Positions 19,951-29,306 of a DNA stretch of 57,491 bases are shown here, piece by piece. The stretch's first letter is position 1. Every line of letters starts with the position of its first letter. The notes beneath the pieces were generated by a model, which ran no database searches, was not told the DNA's origin, and saw only the letters and a program-made list of their open reading frames with translations. A program made the position numbers and the translations under genes. The stretch is taken from positions 1-57,491 of the forward strand of contig CALMJS010000011.1 in NCBI GenBank assembly GCA_937864535.1, given 5' to 3'. The DNA comes from an uncultured Paracoccaceae bacterium (GTDB lineage Bacteria; Pseudomonadota; Alphaproteobacteria; Rhodobacterales; Rhodobacteraceae).

Positions 19951-20167
19951 GGCGTAAATAAATAATCAAACATTCCAATCACTTGCAGACGGGCATTGTT
20001 TTCTGGACCCTTCGCCGCGCCGGAGTCCCGAATAAAACCTATCGATTTCAAGCCTGTTTCGCCTGTCTGGGCTAAAAATTATCTAGTGGCCAGTCGTTAA
20101 CCCAACGTGCTGAAACAGGCTCCACGGATATTTGACCCGTGATGCCCCAACGCGGGACGACGGTGCA

Positions 20168-20452
20168 ATGACAGAAGCGACAGAACGCGAGACTCTTTTC
20201 TCACTCTCGAATGTCTCGAGCGTCCAGGACCTGGGACCTCTCGGTCAACAAATCGACCTCGCCCTCCAGTCTGGGCCTGTTGGCATCGATCTGACAGAAC
20301 CGCCCTTCGTATCCTTTGCGGTGGTACAATTGTTGCTAGCCACTGTGCAAAGGGCGGAGGCGAGAGATCAATCCGTCACGCTCATTGTGCCGGAAGCGTC
20401 GCCGTACACTGCCATGATCGAGACCTGTCGCCTAACCCCCTGGCTTGATTAA
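20168..20452 (+). CDS. STAS-domain protein at head of chemosensory operon
   Basis: 94 aa. The pattern VQDLGPLGQQIDLALQSGPV, then IDLTEPPFVSFAVVQLLLAT and a final helix resembles STAS (anti-sigma antagonist) domains, with the usual phospho-Ser loop region at VSFAV. Such genes often lead chemosensory clusters in proteobacteria; their role is unclear, perhaps scaffold or phospho-switch. The ATG at 20168 is preferred over an upstream TTG (20132) because the extra residues do not fit the fold. The cheY gene follows after 23 nt. Confidence 0.7.
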   Translation: MTEATERETLFSLSNVSSVQDLGPLGQQIDLALQSGPVGIDLTEPPFVSFAVVQLLLATVQRAEARDQSVTLIVPEASPYTAMIETCRLTPWLD

Positions 20453-20475: not shown

Positions 20476-20844
20476 ATGACTGTACAAATCCTGACCGTCG
20501 ATGACTCGCCTTCCATGCGCAAACTGATTTCCGTTGCGCTGACCGCGCAGGGGTTTGCGGTGGCCGAAGCGGTCGACGGGGCTGACGGGCTGGCCAAGGC
20601 CCGCACGCAGCGGTTCGATCTGGTGATCAGCGACCAGAATATGCCGAACATGGACGGCATCACCTTTGTCTCGCATCTCAAGCAATTGCCGGCCTATCGG
20701 TCCACCCCGGTCCTGATGCTGAGTTCGGATTCCAGCGACGATCTCAAGGCCCGCGCACGCGCCGCAGGCGCAATCGGCTGGATGATCAAGCCCTTTGATC
20801 AGGCCAAGCTGATTTCGGCCGTGGCCCGACTGGTGCAGCTATGA
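20476..20844 (+). CDS. cheY: Chemotaxis response regulator CheY
   Basis: A 122-aa single receiver domain. The acidic pocket is Asp9-Asp10 (TVDDSPSMRKL), the phosphoacceptor is Asp53 in LVISDQNMPNMDG, Ser/Thr follows in VLMLSSDSS, and the Lys is in GWMIKPFDQ. There is no output domain. It should be phosphorylated by CheA, encoded immediately downstream with a 4-nt overlap. It is the only stand-alone CheY in the cluster, so signal termination must rely on another factor. Confidence 0.95.
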   Translation: MTVQILTVDDSPSMRKLISVALTAQGFAVAEAVDGADGLAKARTQRFDLVISDQNMPNMDGITFVSHLKQLPAYRSTPVLMLSSDSSDDLKARARAAGAIGWMIKPFDQAKLISAVARLVQL

Positions 20845-22946
20845 GCGAGGATCTGACGCAGATTTTTCTGGAAGAACTGACCGAGTTGTCAGAGCAGCTA
20901 GACGATGCTCTGCTTGCCCTGCGTTCGGACCCGACTGCGTCAGACCCCCTGAACGCGGCCTTTCGTAGCCTGCACACCATCAAGGGCAGCGGCGCGATGT
21001 TCGGATTTATCAAACTGTCCGAATTCGTCCACCGCTTCGAGACAACCTTTGACCTGTTTCGCAACGGCAAAGCGGTCATTACCAACGAGGTGATCGAAAT
21101 CAGCTTTCGGGCGCGCGATCTGATTTCGGCATTGCTGGACCCCGATGCGACCACGCTGGCGACGGCACAGGCCACGCTAGAGCAATTGGAACATTGCCTC
21201 GTTGCAGAGATTGCTCCCGTCCCCGTCCCCGTCCCCGCTGCCGATGGCACCGGGTTCGATTTTGATCTGTCATCGGCGGCCCCGGCCGAGGAACCGATGG
21301 CGGCCGATGCGTCATCGCGGCGTCTGACCTTCGGCTTGATCCATGGCGCACTCGGGCTGGGGTCGCGCCCTGACATCATCCTAAAGGACCTGATGGCGCT
21401 GGGTGCGACCGGGATCGTCGCCATGATCGACGACCTGCCGCCCCTAGACCGCATGGACCCGACCGAATGCTATGTCCGCTGGAGCATGTCCCTGCCGCCA
21501 GAGGTGACCGAGGCGCAGATCGAGGATGTGTTCGGGTTTCATGATGCCGAACTGACCATCGAACCCGCCGACGCCCCTGCGACGTCCCCCGTTCAGGAAT
21601 GGACCGGAGAGAGCGTACACCCGACGGGTGGCGGTTTTGACCTTGACCGCGATGCGATCGGTGCGGCTGCCCCTGCCCGGACGATCCCGGTCAAGCCGGC
21701 AGATGAGACCGCCGCCGCGCCAAGCACCCCTCCACCGTTCGAACCGCCGACCGCCGCTGCGCCGCGTTCTGCCGAAGCGTCGGTCAGGGTGGCTGCGGAA
21801 AAACTGGACATGCTGATGGATCAGGTCGGCGAACTGGTGATCGCAGAGGCGCGCCTGACCGAACTGGCCCACGTCATGAGCGATCAGAGCCTGATCGCGC
21901 TGTCGGAACAGATCACGCGGCTCTCCAGCGGGCTACGGACATCGACAATGTCGATGCGGATGGTGCCCTTCCGGCAAATCGTGTCGCGCCTGCGTCGCCT
22001 GATTGTCGGGCTCAGCGAACAACTGGGCAAGGACATCGACTTTGAAGTCGAGGGCGAGGATACCGAACTGGACAAGACCATGATCGAAAAACTGGTCGAT
22101 CCACTGGTCCATATCCTTCGCAATTCGATGGATCACGGCATCGAAGACGCCGCTACCCGCCTTGCGCTCGGCAAACCTGCCACAGGGAAAATCAAGCTGA
22201 CAGCGGTTCATTCGGGCAACGAAGTGCTGGTGATCATCCGCGATGACGGCAAAGGGCTGGATACAAATGCCATTCGCCAGCGCGGGATCGAACGGGGGAT
22301 TATCACCGCCGATCAGAGCCTGCCGGACGAGCGGATCAATGCCCTGATCTTTGAACCCAATTTTTCAACCCGGACCGAGGTCTCCGAACTGTCGGGGCGC
22401 GGTGTGGGCATGGATGTGGTGCGCAAATCCATCGACGGCCTGCGCGGCGGCATCGAGGTCAAGACCGCTCGGGCAGAAGGCACCCAGATCACCCTGCGCA
22501 TGCCGCTGACGCTCGCGATCGTGGAGGGCATGTTGATCCAGGTGGGGGAAGAGAAATTCACCGTCCCCCTGACCTCGGTCAAGGAAATCGTCGACCTGCC
22601 GGCTTCCAAGGCCACCTGCGCGATGTCCGATGATTTCCTCGATCTGCGCGGCAGCTTTGTGCCGTTCCTGCGATTGCGGCGGCTGATCGGGATGCCGGTG
22701 AACAACACGCTGCCCCAGGTCGTGATCGTGGTTCAGGCAGGCACCGACGAAATCGGGATTGTCGTGGACCGGATCATCGGCAAATCGCAAACCGTGATCA
22801 AACAAATGTCGCCGCTGCACGAAAACGTCAGGATGGTGGCAGGTGCGACGATCCTTGGCGACGGGGGCATCGCCCTGATCCTCGACATCTATCACCTCAT
22901 CGAACTGGGGCGGCGGATGGCCAATGACACGAGGAAAAGCGCATGA
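20841..22946 (+). CDS. cheA: Chemotaxis histidine kinase CheA
   Basis: A 701-aa kinase with the five-domain order. HPt domain: His45 in FRSLHTIKGSGAMFGF. A P2-like region with an Ala/Pro-rich linker spans about 125-310. The dimerisation helices start at RVAAEKLDMLMDQVGELVIAE. The ATPase domain has VHILRNSMDHGIED, IRDDGKGLD and ELSGRGVGMDVVR. The CheW-like regulatory domain (LPLTLAIVEGMLIQVGEE) closes the protein. All catalytic motifs are intact. It overlaps cheY and cheW by 4 nt each. Confidence 0.97.
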   Translation: MSEDLTQIFLEELTELSEQLDDALLALRSDPTASDPLNAAFRSLHTIKGSGAMFGFIKLSEFVHRFETTFDLFRNGKAVITNEVIEISFRARDLISALLDPDATTLATAQATLEQLEHCLVAEIAPVPVPVPAADGTGFDFDLSSAAPAEEPMAADASSRRLTFGLIHGALGLGSRPDIILKDLMALGATGIVAMIDDLPPLDRMDPTECYVRWSMSLPPEVTEAQIEDVFGFHDAELTIEPADAPATSPVQEWTGESVHPTGGGFDLDRDAIGAAAPARTIPVKPADETAAAPSTPPPFEPPTAAAPRSAEASVRVAAEKLDMLMDQVGELVIAEARLTELAHVMSDQSLIALSEQITRLSSGLRTSTMSMRMVPFRQIVSRLRRLIVGLSEQLGKDIDFEVEGEDTELDKTMIEKLVDPLVHILRNSMDHGIEDAATRLALGKPATGKIKLTAVHSGNEVLVIIRDDGKGLDTNAIRQRGIERGIITADQSLPDERINALIFEPNFSTRTEVSELSGRGVGMDVVRKSIDGLRGGIEVKTARAEGTQITLRMPLTLAIVEGMLIQVGEEKFTVPLTSVKEIVDLPASKATCAMSDDFLDLRGSFVPFLRLRRLIGMPVNNTLPQVVIVVQAGTDEIGIVVDRIIGKSQTVIKQMSPLHENVRMVAGATILGDGGIALILDIYHLIELGRRMANDTRKSA

Positions 22947-23449
22947 GCGTGCAAACCAAACACCCGCCCGTTGCCACCGCGGCACAGGCCAGCCAGACGA
23001 TGCTGACGCTGCTGATGGGCACACAGAAATTCGCGATTTCCACCGACCTGATCCGCGAGATCATCGACCCTGTCCCCTTTACCCGCGTCCCGGGCGCTGC
23101 TGCGATGACGCCAGCGGTTTTGAACGTGCGGGGGGCGATCATTCCCTTGGCCTATCTGCACATCCCGCTGAATCTGGAACGACTGGAACGGGGTGATCGG
23201 ACCCGCATCATCGTCGTGCAGGTGCCGCAAGAACACGGCGACGTGACAGTCGGCCTCTATGCCGATGCCGTTCTGCACGTAGGCACCGTAGCGCAAAACC
23301 GCGTCACCAAACTTGCCGATACCAGCCATAACTGGCCGGCCGATCTGATCGCGGGCCTGTTCCGCGACGACGGCGACTTTGTCTTAATCCCCGACCTTGA
23401 AACCATTTTCGCCAATCAGCGCCTGCGCCTGATGGCTTCCGAAGCGTGA
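22943..23449 (+). CDS. cheW: Coupling protein CheW (first copy)
   Basis: A 168-aa CheW-fold adaptor linking CheA to receptors. [20 protein letters not shown] is the first strand block. [21 protein letters not shown] has the conserved Pro and Asn-x-Arg-Gly, and [11 protein letters not shown] is the second subdomain. About 25 extra residues precede the domain. ATGA overlap with cheA. Confidence 0.93.
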
Positions 23450-23456
23450 GGACACC

Positions 23457-25139
23457 ATGCGGATCTCTATCAAACTCAAGCTCGTTTCTGTCTTTGCAGT
23501 CACATTGGGTATCTCCGGCTTCGCTCAATGGGAGGCGAACAAGGCGATCCATGCGCTGGATGAACGGGTCAAAATAATCGTCTCCGAACTGAGCGCAGAG
23601 CGGCAGGCAATTACAAACCTGCTGGTCGAGAACCTGATGATCGAGCAGGACTTCCGCGATATGGCTCTGGCCGGAGACGCTGCGGAACGCCAAGAGCATC
23701 GCGACACGCTCGAGCAGACCTTGGAGAATTTTGCCACCGAACACGAAAAGCTCCGGGCGTTGATCGAAGACGATATGCCGGCCGAGATGGCCCAGATCGA
23801 CGCGACCCTCGAAACCCTGATAGAGGATCGCGAACAGGTTCTGGCCTATCTGGAGGCGGACAACATCTTTGCCGCCAGTCGTTTGCTGATGGGGCAACAA
23901 CATCAAAGCGCAGAAGAATTCACAACCGAACTTCAGACACTTGCCGATCGTCTCCGGCAGGAAATGCTCGAATATACCACCGCCTCTGACGAACTGACGG
24001 CCAAGAGCCAGAGTGAATTGATGATTCTGGCAGCCATCGCCGCGGCGATCGCGATCGCGGGCTGTCTGTGGCTGCTGACCTATCTGCACCGCTCGCTTGT
24101 CCGTGCGATCACATTGGCCAAGGCCATTGCCAGAGGCGATCTACGCCAAGAGGCGGAAAATCCCGGCAATGACGAGTTGGGGGATATGCTGACCTACATG
24201 AACCGCATGGTCGTGCAACTGCGCGAGGTGCTGGGCAATGTGAGCGGCGCGACGGAAAACATGACCCTCGGCGCGGCACAGGTTGCGGCAACCTCTGAAC
24301 AGCTGGCGCAGGGGGCCGCGGAACAATCCTCGGCGACCGAACAATCGACTGCGGCAATCAACCAGATGACCGCAAACACCCGGCAATCGGCGGACAACGC
24401 CCGCCGGACCGAAGAAATGGCCCGCAAATCCGCCGAGGCCGCTGTCGAGAGTGGCCGTGTCACCCAAGAGGCCATTCAGGCGATGCAGCAGATCGTCGAA
24501 AAAATTTCGATCGTGCAGGAAATCGCACGCCAGACCGACCTCCTCGCCCTGAACGCGGCGGTCGAGGCTGCGCGGGCGGGCGAACATGGTCGCGGCTTTG
24601 CTGTGGTTGCCGCCGAAGTGCGCAAATTGGCCGAACGCAGCCAGGAGGCCGCCACCGAAATTTCCAGCCTGTCCAACCGGACTGCGGACTCGGCGATGAA
24701 GGCCGGCAAAATGCTGACGGAACTGGTGCCGGATATCGAACAAACCTCGCGTCTGGTCGCCGAAATCTCGGTCGCGATGCGCGAATTGTCGGTGGGGTCG
24801 GACCAGATCAACTCCGCGATCAACGAACTGGACAACGTCACGCAGGAAAACACCGCCGCCGCCGAGGAACTGTCTTCGGCCTCGACGGAACTGGCCAGCC
24901 AGGCCGACGCACTGAACGACTCGATCGGGTATTTCAAATTGCCCGAGAGCCAGTCCGACGCCCGGCAAGACATGGTGACATTAAACAACAGCGACCAGCG
25001 CCGCGCGAAAAAGCCTCGCAAGGCAGCCGCCCCCGTCAACGAACCGGCAAACTCGTCGTCCGGCTACTCATTTGACCTCGATGGCGACATTTCGGACGAC
25101 GAACTGGATCGGGCCTTTGGGTCGGGCAAGCGCCGTTAA
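23457..25139 (+). CDS. Transmembrane methyl-accepting chemotaxis protein
   Basis: A 560-aa receptor. One membrane segment lies near residues 8-22 and another near 183-205 ([20 protein letters not shown]), enclosing a roughly 160-aa periplasmic helical domain with no classical ligand motif, probably of the four-helix-bundle type. A HAMP domain follows, then a signalling hairpin with the canonical tip [20 protein letters not shown] and [20 protein letters not shown], which binds CheA/CheW. Methylation-site-like Glu/Gln pairs flank it. The C-terminal 60 residues are a linker ending in an acidic patch, DDELDRAF, then basic residues. The CheR-binding pentapeptide NWETF is absent. GAGGACACC precedes the ATG. 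Confidence 0.94.
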
Positions 25140-25150
25140 GGAGGCCAAAG

Positions 25151-25621
25151 ATGCGGTTCGAAGGGCCCATCCTCACGCTGGAATGCAACGAGAGCAGCTA
25201 TGCGATCGACATCGGCGCGGTGCAGGAAATCCTTGACGTCCGGCCGATCAAGCCGCTGCCGAATACGCCTGCGTATTTGCTGGGTATGATCGACCTGCGC
25301 GGGATCAATGTGCCGGTGGCGGATCTGCGTCTGCTGCTCGGGGGCTCTGCCGCTGCGGACCAGCCCAGCACGCGGATTCTGGTCACCTCGGTTCGATCCG
25401 ACGGGATCAACCACATCATTGGCCTGCGCTGTGATCGCGTGATCGAGGTCACGCAGATCGACGAAGGCACCTTGGCCAGCATCGACAGCGCCGATTTGCT
25501 GCATTGGTCGGATGCCGGCATGGCGGGGATGGCGCGGGTCAAGTCCACGCCTGTCGCGCTGATCGACCTTGATCGCCTGTTTGCGGCGCTGGGGAACAGT
25601 CCCTTGGCGGTCGCGGGATGA
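25151..25621 (+). CDS. cheW: Coupling protein CheW (second copy)
   Basis: A 156-aa CheW-domain protein. It opens MRFEGPILTLECNESSYAID, continues with IKPLPNTPAYLLGMIDLRGI (Pro plus LRG motif) and IIGLRCDRVIEV, and is clearly divergent from the first copy. Two adaptors in one cluster often serve different receptors, or one acts as a CheV-like buffer without a receiver. AAGGAGGCCAAAG gives a strong ribosome-binding site. Its stop overlaps cheR (ATGA). Confidence 0.9.
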   Translation: MRFEGPILTLECNESSYAIDIGAVQEILDVRPIKPLPNTPAYLLGMIDLRGINVPVADLRLLLGGSAAADQPSTRILVTSVRSDGINHIIGLRCDRVIEVTQIDEGTLASIDSADLLHWSDAGMAGMARVKSTPVALIDLDRLFAALGNSPLAVAG

Positions 25622-26496
25622 CCAGCCATCCCGCAGTACGGCGCACGACGCCAGGTCAGGCCCCCTCATCGTCAGACGCGATGAGCCGGTTCCGGGCGAT
25701 CGTCTATCAGGAGTCCGGCATCGCGCTCCAGGAGACCAAGGATACGATGATCCAGCAGCGCCTGTCCAAACGGATGCGCGCCATCGGGATGACGAATCTG
25801 GACAGCTATCTCAAACGTATCCTCGGGGACGAAAGTTTCCGGGCCGAGAGAACCGCGGCCGTGCAGGCCATGACCACCAATACGACCTATTTTTTCCGCG
25901 AACCGGTGCATTTCGAGGTTTTGCAGGACACCATCGTCCCCGAGTTGTTCCAGAACAATCCGCGGTCGGATCGCACGGTCAGGATCTGGAGCGTCGCCGC
26001 ATCCGAAGGTGCCGAGGCCTACACCGCCGCTATGGCGATGGAGGTCCTGCGCGAGATCTATCCGCTGACCGACTACGAGATCATCGGGACGGATTTTTCC
26101 CACAAGATGCTGACCCGCGCCAGCCGCGGAGTTTACAAGCTGGAACAACTGGAGGGAATACCACTCAGTTTGCGCCGGAAATACGTTCAAACCAGCAAAG
26201 ACCCGAAGTTCATGGACTATGGGCGTATTGCAGACAGCATCCGCAGTCGGTGCCAGTTCCGGCATCTCAATCTGATGGAGAGTCCCTATGCGCTACCAAA
26301 CAATTTCGACGTCGCGTTTTTGCGGAATGTGCTGATCTACTTTACCCCTGCCGACCAGAAGAAAGTCATTTCTTCGGTGATCAAACATCTGGTTCCGGGC
26401 GGCTATCTGATTGTAGGCCATTCGGAATGCATGGCGGTGCAGCGCGATGATCTCACCGCGCTACGACCCACAATTTATCGAAAGTCCCTCACATGA
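25618..26496 (+). CDS. cheR: Chemotaxis methyltransferase CheR
   Basis: A 292-aa SAM-dependent glutamate methyltransferase acting on receptors. The N-terminal helical domain has SRFRAIVYQESGIALQETKD and QQRLSKRMRAIGM. The catalytic domain has TTNTTYFFREPVHFEVL (the FFR motif), RIWSVAASEGAEAYTAAM as SAM-binding loop (the usual GCSTGEE is changed to AASEGAE) and FDVAFLRNVLIYFTPADQ. The changed glycine loop is worth noting, but the fold is otherwise complete. The ATG at 25618 overlaps the cheW stop; a second ATG at 25681 is an alternative start closer to the domain. Confidence 0.93.
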   Translation: MTSHPAVRRTTPGQAPSSSDAMSRFRAIVYQESGIALQETKDTMIQQRLSKRMRAIGMTNLDSYLKRILGDESFRAERTAAVQAMTTNTTYFFREPVHFEVLQDTIVPELFQNNPRSDRTVRIWSVAASEGAEAYTAAMAMEVLREIYPLTDYEIIGTDFSHKMLTRASRGVYKLEQLEGIPLSLRRKYVQTSKDPKFMDYGRIADSIRSRCQFRHLNLMESPYALPNNFDVAFLRNVLIYFTPADQKKVISSVIKHLVPGGYLIVGHSECMAVQRDDLTALRPTIYRKSLT

Positions 26497-27593
26497 CCAT
26501 GGGTGCTGACAAGATTCAGGTTCTAATTGTCGACGACTCGGCCTCGGCCAGGGCGATGCTCCGACATATGATCGAAACCGACCCGCAGATTGTCGTGCAG
26601 AATACCGCCAGCGATGCGTTTATTGCGGTGGACCGGATGAAGCGGCAATTGCCGGATGTCATCCTGCTGGACCTCGAAATGCCGGGGATGAGCGGCCTTA
26701 CCTTTATCGAAAAGATCATGGCCCAAAAGCCGATCCCGATCGTGGTCTGTTCCAGCCATGCCCAGAAGGGGTCGGATGCGGCGCTCTCTGCCCTGCGCGC
26801 CGGCGCGCTAGAAGCCATTCTCAAACCCGCCATCACCGACCAGAGCCAGATTGCCCTCGCGACCCGCGACATTACCCACGCCATTCGCGCCGCCTTTGCC
26901 AGCTCCAAGAGCGCCAAGGCCTCGATGATGTACCGCGAGGAGAGCCGGGACGGAAAAAACAGTCCCGATGTGATCCTGCCCAAACCCGGTCCCAATACCG
27001 CAGCACCGCGAACCGAACCGATTGTCTGCATCGGCGCATCGACCGGCGGCACCGTCGCCCTCGAAAAACTCCTGACCGCCCTGCCCGCAGACTGTCCGCC
27101 CATCCTGATCGTTCAGCATATGCCCCCCGATTTCACCGCCGGGTTCGCGCGCCGTCTGAATAGCGTCTGCACGATCGAGGTTGTCGAGGCGACCAACCAG
27201 CTGCGGCTCTCGCGAGGTACGGCCGTCATCGCCAAGGGGGGCTCCCATCTCCTGCTGAGGCGGATGACCAATATGTACACGACCTCGGTCGTGGATGGCC
27301 CCTATGTGCAACGCCACAATCCATCGGTCGATGTCCTGTTCCGGTCCGCGGCCAATGCGGCCTGTCAGAATGCCATGGGCATCCTATTGACCGGGATGGG
27401 GGATGACGGTGCCTTGGGGCTGCTGGAAATGCGGCAGACCGGCGCGAATACCATCGCGCAGGACGAGGCCAGCAGCGTCGTTTTCGGGATGCCAAGGGTT
27501 GCCATCGAAAAAGGCGCCGCTGGCCGCGTTCTCCCGCTTTCTCAAATGGCCGCCGCGATCATGCAATTCGACCGGCAATACAGGGGGCAATAA
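26493..27593 (+). CDS. cheB: Chemotaxis methylesterase/glutamine deamidase CheB
   Basis: 366 aa. The receiver domain has Asp14/Asp15 and phospho-Asp60 in VILLDLEMPGMSGL. After a linker of about 45 residues comes the esterase domain, with catalytic Ser in CIGASTGGTVALE, His in LIVQHMPPDFTAGFA and Asp in ILLTGMGDDGALGL. It removes methyl groups from receptors when phosphorylated by CheA. Full length and intact. Start overlaps the cheR stop by 4 nt. Confidence 0.96.
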   Translation: MTMGADKIQVLIVDDSASARAMLRHMIETDPQIVVQNTASDAFIAVDRMKRQLPDVILLDLEMPGMSGLTFIEKIMAQKPIPIVVCSSHAQKGSDAALSALRAGALEAILKPAITDQSQIALATRDITHAIRAAFASSKSAKASMMYREESRDGKNSPDVILPKPGPNTAAPRTEPIVCIGASTGGTVALEKLLTALPADCPPILIVQHMPPDFTAGFARRLNSVCTIEVVEATNQLRLSRGTAVIAKGGSHLLLRRMTNMYTTSVVDGPYVQRHNPSVDVLFRSAANAACQNAMGILLTGMGDDGALGLLEMRQTGANTIAQDEASSVVFGMPRVAIEKGAAGRVLPLSQMAAAIMQFDRQYRGQ

Positions 27594-27596
27594 ATC

Positions 27597-29306
27597 ATGA
27601 CCGCCTTGGCATTTTCGACTGTTCGTCAAGACCAGTGGCAGCCCGACAGTGCTGCGCAGTTCAGGGCTGGAACCACCAAGATCGAGAGCTGCTTTCTCTC
27701 CAGCAGCGATCAGTTGGCAAGGGCGTTGGCGAGCACGGGCAATCTCAGTCAGGGCCTCGACCAGCTCAAGGCCGTCGGTGGGTCTCAGGCGCTGGAACAG
27801 CTGGGTAGAACGCTGAACAAACTGGATATCCTCTCTGAAAATCTGGGGAAATCGTTTGGCGGGCTGTCTGAAACCATGTGGCAGGTCATGGGCAAGACCA
27901 GCGAAGTCCGGCAAAGCGCCAAATCGATGGCCCAAATCATCGTGATGATCGAAAGCGGTGCCATTAATGCCCGCATCCTCGCCCGCTATCTGTCGCCCCC
28001 CTCACAGGCCGTCGATGCCTTTGTTCACCGTCTGGCGGAAATGTCGGCCGATGCGCAGCAGGTCCAGACCCGCATCAACGAGGCCCTGTCGGCGGTCACC
28101 AAGAACTCTGAACTGTTACGTCAATCCACGCTCGACCTTGGCCGCCAGATGGAGCGCGACATCGAACCCGTGCTCGACCATCTGGCGCAGGGCGTAGCCG
28201 GCCGCGTCAATCAGGCCAAAGCGAACAGTAGCCTGACCGAGGAAATGGCGCAGGTTTGGGATCGGATCAGTGCCTGCGTGGCGCATCTGTTGACCGACTT
28301 CCAGCAGGGAGATCTGATCCGCCAGCGCTGGGAACATGTCTCGACCATTCTCGATCTGGCGCGGTCGCAAAACGATCCGGCGCTGTTGCAGCTATGCCTG
28401 CTGATCGCACGGGCGCAATTGCACGCCAGCACCGACGACATGGGGGAGCTGATCAAGGGCAGCAGCCGTCGCAGCAAGAGCCTGTCGGAAGATGTGGAGG
28501 CCGCAATCCGACTGGCGCAGTTGCTCTATAATGTCCAGACAGGACAGGCTTCGGCAAACCTCGGAGAGCGGTTGTCCGAAGTGAATGCGACCCTCGGCGA
28601 TGCCGAGATCACCTATCAAAAGATCATTGCCCTTGCCGAGCAACTGGATCAGGCCTCTGACCGGATCGCTGCCGAAGAATCCTCGATCGCCAATACCGCG
28701 CATCATATCCGCCTGTCGGGCCTGAATGCCGCGATTGTCTGCGCGCGGCTTGGCGCTGCGGGTCGCGGACTGAGGGAATTGGCGATGTGGCTGCGCCGAC
28801 TGACCAACGATTGCGAGCAGGCCAGCGCGGCGATTCAGGCCGGAACAAAGGACGTGGTCGGCCACACCAACAATATGCAAACCGTGCAAGTCGCCGAGGT
28901 GGCGTCCCAGTTTATCGAGCTCGCCCCTCTGATCCAGAGCCTTGTCGCCTCCGTTGCGACCTATGACCAGAGCATGGGCAAGGTGGCAGGCATGCTGGCA
29001 GAGGTGCGCCGCGACGTCACCGGGTCGATGACCTCTTGCCAATCAGGGATCGAACAGTTCCAGACGGTTCAGGCGCTCGCGCTCGCGCTCTTGACCGACC
29101 TGACCCGTGAAACGGGTATGGACGCGAACCACAAGGGCGCGATCAGCGACAGTTGGTCGGGCGTTCTGGACAAGATACGCGGCATCTACACCATCGAAAC
29201 CGAACGCAGCATCCACGACGCCGTTCTGGCCGGTGATCCGGCTGCCTATCGGGCCAAGGCGATGGAGCAGATCAAGGCACAGGATCTGGACGACATATTT
29301 TTCTAG
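27597..29306 (+). CDS. Receptor-fold cytoplasmic protein with CheZ-like features (candidate CheY phosphatase)
   Basis: 569 aa, almost wholly helical, with no membrane segment and no signal peptide. Residues about 365-400 resemble a degraded chemoreceptor tip: SGLNAAIVCARLGAAGRGL (N377 at its centre) aligns with [20 protein letters not shown] of the neighbouring receptor but has lost the key Glu residues. Residues 239-243, inside DFQQGDLIRQRWEHV, give D-x3-Q, the spacing of the catalytic Asp/Gln of CheZ-type phosphatases. The last residues, AQDLDDIFF, resemble the acidic C-terminal CheY-binding tail of CheZ (QDxVDDLLxxLGF type). The cluster has no cheZ, cheC, cheX or cheD. I infer a receptor-derived CheY-binding protein, possibly a phosphatase; it could instead be a receptor-like scaffold. 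It starts 3 nt after the cheB stop and ends the operon. Confidence 0.6.
   Translation: MTALAFSTVRQDQWQPDSAAQFRAGTTKIESCFLSSSDQLARALASTGNLSQGLDQLKAVGGSQALEQLGRTLNKLDILSENLGKSFGGLSETMWQVMGKTSEVRQSAKSMAQIIVMIESGAINARILARYLSPPSQAVDAFVHRLAEMSADAQQVQTRINEALSAVTKNSELLRQSTLDLGRQMERDIEPVLDHLAQGVAGRVNQAKANSSLTEEMAQVWDRISACVAHLLTDFQQGDLIRQRWEHVSTILDLARSQNDPALLQLCLLIARAQLHASTDDMGELIKGSSRRSKSLSEDVEAAIRLAQLLYNVQTGQASANLGERLSEVNATLGDAEITYQKIIALAEQLDQASDRIAAEESSIANTAHHIRLSGLNAAIVCARLGAAGRGLRELAMWLRRLTNDCEQASAAIQAGTKDVVGHTNNMQTVQVAEVASQFIELAPLIQSLVASVATYDQSMGKVAGMLAEVRRDVTGSMTSCQSGIEQFQTVQALALALLTDLTRETGMDANHKGAISDSWSGVLDKIRGIYTIETERSIHDAVLAGDPAAYRAKAMEQIKAQDLDDIFF

Follow-up and report, generated by a model that had tools for sequence, protein, structure and literature searches.

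In the CheY phosphatase CheZ, an Asp and a Gln act at the CheY aspartate, the Gln positioning the attacking water, and the tail of the protein binds CheY. The primary TlpC paper of 2002 reportedly found that protein to be needed for chemotaxis in R. sphaeroides, the only species for which this need, and the location of TlpC in a cytoplasmic cluster, have been reported. TlpC has been in print since then, as cited in PMC6829392, PMC3964821 and PMC10924463, whose accounts all place the R. sphaeroides protein in the cytoplasmic cluster. This cluster is described in PMC6829392 as more diffuse without TlpC, and the two-hybrid partners given there are CheA3, CheW4 and TlpC itself. The kinase served by TlpC is disputed, being CheA3 according to PMC6829392 and CheA4 according to PMC10924463. 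According to PMC3964821, TlpC shows no significant homology to canonical receptors in structure, HAMP or methylation region, and PMC6829392 describes it as having no obvious adaptation sites. It is termed non-essential in PMC3358273, which is taken here as referring to viability. CheT of Sinorhizobium meliloti, described in PMC12654446 as a non-CheZ protein that carries DXXXQ, is encoded in a che cluster and dephosphorylates one of two CheYs, is on that description a precedent for a D-x3-Q phosphatase outside CheZ.

The window, which is the whole stretch of DNA analysed here (57,491 nucleotides from an uncultured Paracoccaceae bacterium), contains a che operon that is encoded throughout on the + strand. 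Its gene order is STAS-like protein (20132–20452), CheY (20476–20844), CheA with Hpt, dimer, kinase and CheW domains (20841–22946), CheW, MCP, CheW and CheR (together 22943–26496), CheB (26493–27593) and, after a gap of three bases, a TlpC-family gene (27597–29306) that closes the operon. The genes from cheY to cheB were assigned by profile matches, and the last by its open reading frame (ORF) and a family alignment; the match of the STAS-like protein, at 27.9 bits, lies just under the Pfam cut-off of 29.2. This protein at the operon head may be CheS-like, a kind named in PMC12654446. CheY is the candidate substrate of the activity considered below for the product of the last gene, termed P0001.

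A sequence-only reading of the DNA had described P0001 as a 569-aa protein free of membrane segments, with D239-x3-Q243 and the C-terminal end AQDLDDIFF, all of which is borne out by the ORF and by hydropathy: the highest 19-residue value is 1.41, against 2.57 in the window's own membrane receptor, so that the protein is soluble by this measure. It had also pointed to a degraded receptor tip, and this was found at SGLNAAIVCARLGAAGRGL, from residue 374, within a sub-threshold match to the Pfam signalling domain PF00015 (residues 330–481; 30.4 bits, below the cut-off of 34.6). What that reading missed was the TlpC identity of the protein, a first tip (SGAINARI), a conserved YTxxxERxxH element and, in another part of the genome, a second chemotaxis cluster.

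P0001 is a member of the TlpC family. The four primers with which tlpC of R. sphaeroides was replaced in PMC3358273 match one homologous locus, L077, with no mismatches; the upstream site stops at the start codon, and its downstream counterpart starts right after the stop codon. The gene product of L077 is 580 aa, the length given for TlpC in PMC3964821. Together, the primer match and the length identify the homologues of P0001 as the TlpC family. P0001 matches the family profile at positions 2–574 of 574, being itself one of the profile's nine rows, and full-length pairwise matches to family members were also found from P0001 alone. In Cereibacter and Luteovulum, which we take to be the R. 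sphaeroides group, the TlpC-family gene comes after the cheB of a cheA-cheW-cheW-cheR-cheB operon. The place immediately downstream of cheB, in an operon of the CheOp2 type, is that of the gene in the window and in 21 of 24 loci overall. The three exceptions (L097, L107 and L109) are second Cereibacter/Luteovulum copies located between MCP genes; these paralogues lie near another cheA, and that of L097 ends in Leu and not Phe.

Of 295 genomes sampled from the window's GTDB family, 19 encode a full-length TlpC, and remote members occur at three further loci (L050, L051 and L076). A class sample of 142 alphaproteobacterial genomes, roughly one per family, yielded two TlpC genomes outside the window's family. 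The 24 TlpC genomes examined for CheA3 (see below) consist of 22 from this family and two others. The TlpC-like genes of these two other alphaproteobacterial families are L203 and L204, and both genomes also encode CheZ. At L075 (G262:C1) TlpC-like pieces lie in two overlapping frames, as would result from a disrupted gene or a sequencing error, and the che genes of L076 (G260:C1) are encoded on the other strand. Plasmid searches with one TlpC and one MCP-Z protein (see below) gave no match at the limits set.

When the TlpC profile is split in two, its N-terminal half aligns to its C-terminal half (hhalign P 5.8e-9), NARI falling opposite NAVI; TlpC is therefore made up of two tandem receptor hairpins. 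Both align to receptor tips in profile comparisons. The first, degraded tip (SGAINARI) occupies residues 120–127 of P0001 (27954–27977, + strand), where A125 is kept in 42 of 44 aligned sequences and R126 in 40; the second (residues 374–392; 28716–28772, + strand) contains N377, which is kept in all 44. PF00015 is matched by 7 of 24 TlpC-family members at E <= 0.1. The AlphaFold model of P0001 is all-helical (pLDDT 82, pTM 0.56, with low packing confidence), and Foldseek searches with this model returned receptors (2ch7_A at rank 25, TM 0.52 by target length) and generic coiled coils, with CheZ not among the best 50 of 997 matches. A profile search for CheZ, proposed in the sequence-only reading, likewise gave no such match for P0001 (Pfam, E <= 1) or for the 24 members, CheZ being absent from the 25 families listed, of 40 matched, at E <= 0.1. 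Pfam, NCBIfam and PDB sequence searches of P0001 found receptors or coiled-coil noise, and again CheZ was absent.

The putative active site lies in the region of residues 235–248 (FQQGDLIRQRWEHV; 28299–28340, + strand), with D239 at 28311–28313 and Q243 at 28323–28325, inside a helix predicted by AlphaFold to span residues 137–256; in the numbering of R. sphaeroides TlpC the pair is D237 and Q241. Since P0001 contains four D-x3-Q sequences, against 2.7 expected from its composition, the motif by itself means nothing; it rises above chance because it is conserved across the family. The alignment used consists of P0001 and 43 further sequences, with a median pairwise identity of 19% (range 12–97%), and as it includes close pairs its 44 rows are not 44 independent cases. 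Conservation among homologues, which the sequence-only reading had set as a test for motif and tail, was found for both. Q236, D239, Q243 and R244 are identical in 44/44 rows, G238 in 43 and R242 in 42, giving a conserved patch, Q-x-G-D-x2-R-Q-R-x-E, at the end of the first hairpin. Twenty columns are conserved at >=90%, and 8 of them lie in residues 235–247 (hypergeometric P 6e-10, on rows that include close pairs); only one D-x3-Q in the alignment reaches that level. No column pair corresponding to the E-x2-N of CheC, CheX and FliY was conserved at 90%.

The acidic C-terminal tail AQDLDDIFF (residues 561–569; 29277–29303, + strand) ends in a column that is Phe in 42 of 44 rows, 40 sequences terminating exactly there; the exceptions are two with an extra Gly, one with a Leu end, and the remote L051, which is tail-less. 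Between the second tip and the tail lies YTIETERSIH (residues 531–540; 29187–29216, + strand), the YTxxxERxxH element, in which Y531, E536 and R537 are each conserved in 44/44 rows and which is also found in some MCP-Z proteins. Two of the rows, L051 (tail-less) and L108 (extended frame), are included in these counts and left out of the hhalign set, which holds 42 of the 44. Outside the 44 rows stands the distant member L076 (578 aa), in which SDRLAQRLDHL and YTMEEERAVH are followed by the terminus DDLDDILF. Three distant members, namely L076, inside the window's GTDB family, and L203 and L204, outside it, retain D-x3-QR together with the YTM element and the F-end.

The name MCP-Z is coined here for receptor-hairpin proteins that carry FQD-x3-Q and an acidic, F-ended tail, often beside cheB. 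The first of these, L013, is a weak match that encodes a 409-aa receptor-like protein right after cheB; the protein contains FQDRTKQRLENVI and terminates in GGDVELF. MCP-Z loci were collected by similarity to L013, itself motif-bearing, and among the resulting 29 ORFs the 14 best all have FQD-x3-Q and an [IV]E[LM]F end; the 15 ranked lower are ordinary receptors with neither FQD-x3-Q nor an F-ended tail. In 9 of the 14 loci cheB ends at most 90 bases upstream on the same strand. A profile of the MCP-Z C-terminal segment matches 116 of 349 Pseudomonadota genomes; some of these matches are to CheZ genes themselves, as with G096:C13:290827-290991, which falls inside a CheZ match. At the best 30 loci, where ORFs were picked by motif and not by tail, 30/30 have an ORF with [FLM]Q-x(0-2)-D-x3-Q and an F end. 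An ordinary-receptor profile is matched by 27 of these 30 (E <= 1e-5), and not by L179, L185 or L199. Pfam (13 proteins) and NCBIfam (9) scans of MCP-Z gave receptor models only, and nothing informative for the tip-less L179. The latter (L179:1498-2067) is a stand-alone protein of 189 aa with FQFYDKLTQRLDHV, YTMEEER and DDIELF that has neither a receptor-profile nor a CheZ Pfam match, and other short frames matched by the MCP-Z profile (G543, G706 and G744) may resemble it. Across L141–L154 and L172–L201, MCP-Z proteins with F[QE]D-x3-Q, ending mostly in [DE][IV][DE]LF, were observed in many Pseudomonadota, their genes often adjoining cheB, cheW or cheY.

The elements of TlpC recur in MCP-Z in the same order: L152 and L153 have a single hairpin followed by FQD-x3-QRLEH, YTMxxER and an IELF end. 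In L151 (L151:1489-3579), a 696-aa protein, two MCP-Z modules stand in tandem and the second copy is without D-x3-Q, as in TlpC, making this a possible parallel to the origin of TlpC.

Profile comparisons with CheZ used 29 alphaproteobacterial sequences, L127 having been left out of 30 as it had no ORF with the CheZ motif. MCP-Z aligned to this set with P 1e-6 and Prob 91 (hhalign), FQD..Q being in register; none of 200 shuffles reached the score, and the best P among 40 ordinary-receptor sets was 0.0038. Because masking the motif drops P to 0.003, the MCP-Z–CheZ link rests mainly on the motif region. The first TlpC hairpin aligned to MCP-Z with P 1.3e-11 and DxxxQR in register, and with P 2.3e-7 when the motif was masked, compared with 1.5e-5 for ordinary receptors; for the second hairpin, aligned via the YTM element, P was 5e-11, against 2.4e-10 for ordinary receptors. 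The direct TlpC–CheZ comparison was weak, with a score of 30, P 0.006 and Prob 6%, in the right register. This score lies just above the maxima of 200 shuffles (27.0) and of 40 clean receptor sets (29.2), and under the maximum of 31.4 that was obtained when the receptor set still held the MCP-Z protein L151; masking the motif lowered it only slightly, from 29.8 to 27.5. The ordinary-receptor set was filtered for one tip and for no FQD-x3-Q after the tip, so that absence of the motif is by construction and absence of the tail is not: 0/25 clean receptors end in F, L151 having been the sole F-ended protein of 26. A position-specific scoring matrix derived from the 29 CheZ sequences gave the motif the top rank in no more than 23 of the 44 family rows, P0001 scoring within background. 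As direct similarity between TlpC and CheZ is weak, the claim that they are related runs through MCP-Z.

How far D239 and Q243 are exposed was judged by helical-wheel angles alone. Measured from the hydrophobic face, the Asp and Gln lie at 121 and 161 degrees in TlpC, where the hydrophobic moment is weak (0.22 per residue), at 110 and 150 degrees in CheZ and at 95 and 135 degrees in MCP-Z, from which both residues are estimated to occupy the polar side of their helix in TlpC, as in CheZ. The suggestion in the sequence-only reading of a receptor hairpin with a CheZ-type site was upheld in part, MCP-Z linking TlpC and CheZ in register, and gained no CheZ profile match.

These results suggest, with the chances about evenly balanced, that the TlpC-family protein is an array-embedded CheY~P phosphatase of the CheZ type. 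The receptor fold and CheW would hold the protein in the chemoreceptor array, and its acidic tail would capture CheY~P at the same face that CheZ and FliM engage. D239 and Q243 would then be inserted at the CheY aspartate, with the Gln positioning the attacking water as in CheZ, and the signal would thereby be terminated from within the array. A broader proposal is put forward more tentatively, and falls somewhat below an even chance: TlpC and MCP-Z may together be a single, widespread class of CheY~P phosphatases built into chemoreceptors, in which TlpC would have arisen by tandem duplication of the module, with the site kept in the first copy, and would be the missing CheZ of the window's family. 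CheZ is present in 12 of the 14 MCP-Z genomes and in both TlpC genomes from outside the window's family, which counts against a simple replacement of CheZ.

None of 295 genomes of the window's family gave a CheZ match, compared with 55 of 142 in the class sample (53 of them over the curated cut-off). The sequence-only reading had noted the lack of cheZ, cheC and cheX in the cluster; this held, and searches of the whole genome matched none of CheZ, CheC or CheX. The genome does carry a second chemotaxis cluster, on another contig (L214; G000:C15:170000-189000), with a 448-aa CheA without Hpt, CheR, CheB, CheW, an MCP with PAS and HAMP, a receiver, and a 1085-aa CheA3-like protein with Hpt and CheW domains. 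The genes beside this cluster look flagellar and were read, from their sequence, as fliF/fliG. Such a split CheA pair is the CheA4/CheA3 layout of R. sphaeroides, as described in PMC6829392 and PMC3964821. Given the CheA3-like protein, P0001 is not the sole phosphatase candidate of its genome. The middle region of CheA3, published as a CheY6~P phosphatase region, was matched in 9 of 24 TlpC genomes, the window's own included, and gave no match in the other 15 (one query, E <= 0.001). Thirteen genomes of the window's family have TlpC as the sole CheY~P phosphatase candidate matched, a figure for which CheC and CheX were searched in the window's genome only and which includes one genome (G005) apparently outside the CheZ sample. 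No conserved D-x3-Q was found in the phosphatase region of nine CheA3-like proteins, and an invariant one is present in their Hpt domain, where no phosphatase site is expected, showing that the motif alone is not diagnostic.

The main rival, considered rather unlikely, is the published view that TlpC is a non-catalytic receptor or array component feeding the CheA3 phosphatase. TlpC would then organise the cytoplasmic cluster and act as a regulator of CheA3, and the conserved patch would be a CheA/CheW or subunit contact. In favour of this view are the two-hybrid contacts with CheA3, CheW4 and TlpC itself, the more diffuse cluster seen without TlpC (PMC6829392), the receptor hairpins, and the CheA3/CheA4-like cluster in the window's genome. 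The 15 TlpC genomes that lack a match to the CheA3 middle region make regulation of CheA3 unlikely as the general job of TlpC, and conservation is densest around D-x3-Q and not at the second tip. The two-hybrid table of PMC6829392 does not list CheY as a partner, an absence that leaves room for a CheY contact.

Improbable by comparison with catalysis at D239 and Q243 is a role for the tail in holding CheY or CheY~P in the array as a buffer, sink or delivery platform. Such a role would be in keeping with the conservation of the tail and with its resemblance to alphaproteobacterial CheZ ends such as QDDIDDILNKLL and to the E. coli CheZ end DDLLDSLGF; a pure binder, however, leaves unexplained the invariance of D239 and Q243 in the MCP-Z/CheZ register. 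It is quite improbable that the F-terminal tail tethers CheR or CheB in the manner of the receptor pentapeptide, with the D-x3-Q patch being structural, for although cheB lies directly upstream in 21/24 loci and MCP-Z tails, mostly IELF or VELF, are acidic with Phe last, as are pentapeptides (PMC7390727), position 2 of the pentapeptide is described there as predominantly Trp, whereas it is mostly D, S, A or E in TlpC and I or V in MCP-Z, and published TlpC is described in PMC3964821 as having no recognisable methylation region.

CheZ, TlpC and receptors are already known; what appears new, against the open-licence literature, is the combination of receptor hairpins with a putative site and tail of the CheZ type. 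Titles and abstracts of the open-licence literature, a body that does not extend to the primary TlpC paper, yielded no report of a CheZ-like site in TlpC or receptor-like proteins, and the word 'CheZ' is absent from the available text of PMC6829392 and PMC3964821. The conserved patch narrows a test of the biochemical role of TlpC to two residues. If TlpC is an array-embedded phosphatase, this would suggest how the CheZ-less bacteria of the window's family switch CheY off, would place signal termination inside the receptor array, and would extend to proteins of other Pseudomonadota for which the scans gave matches to receptor models alone.

Compared with the canonical chemoreceptor (PF00015), P0001 differs in that both of its tips are degraded and that it has no membrane segment by hydropathy. 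Like CheZ (PF04344), it ends in a peptide that is both acidic and hydrophobic and carries D-x3-Q in a long helix, on what is estimated to be its polar face, and the motif context D-x-T-x-Q-R-[LI]-x-x-V is common to many TlpC members and CheZ. Unlike CheZ, it is a 569-aa protein with receptor hairpins, most of the CheZ ORFs used being 170–290 aa, and has no PF04344 match and weak direct profile similarity. CheT is alike by description, as a non-CheZ protein with D-x3-Q from a che cluster, and unlike P0001 in its CheZ-like predicted structure, the description in PMC12654446 mentioning no receptor hairpins. From R. sphaeroides TlpC, P0001 differs in an identity of about 22–23% and in the MCP gene located here between two cheW genes. 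It shares with that protein its operon position after cheB, a similar length (569 against 580 aa), the YT element, the motif (there LQAGDSARQRFEHV) and the tail (there EEDLADIFF).
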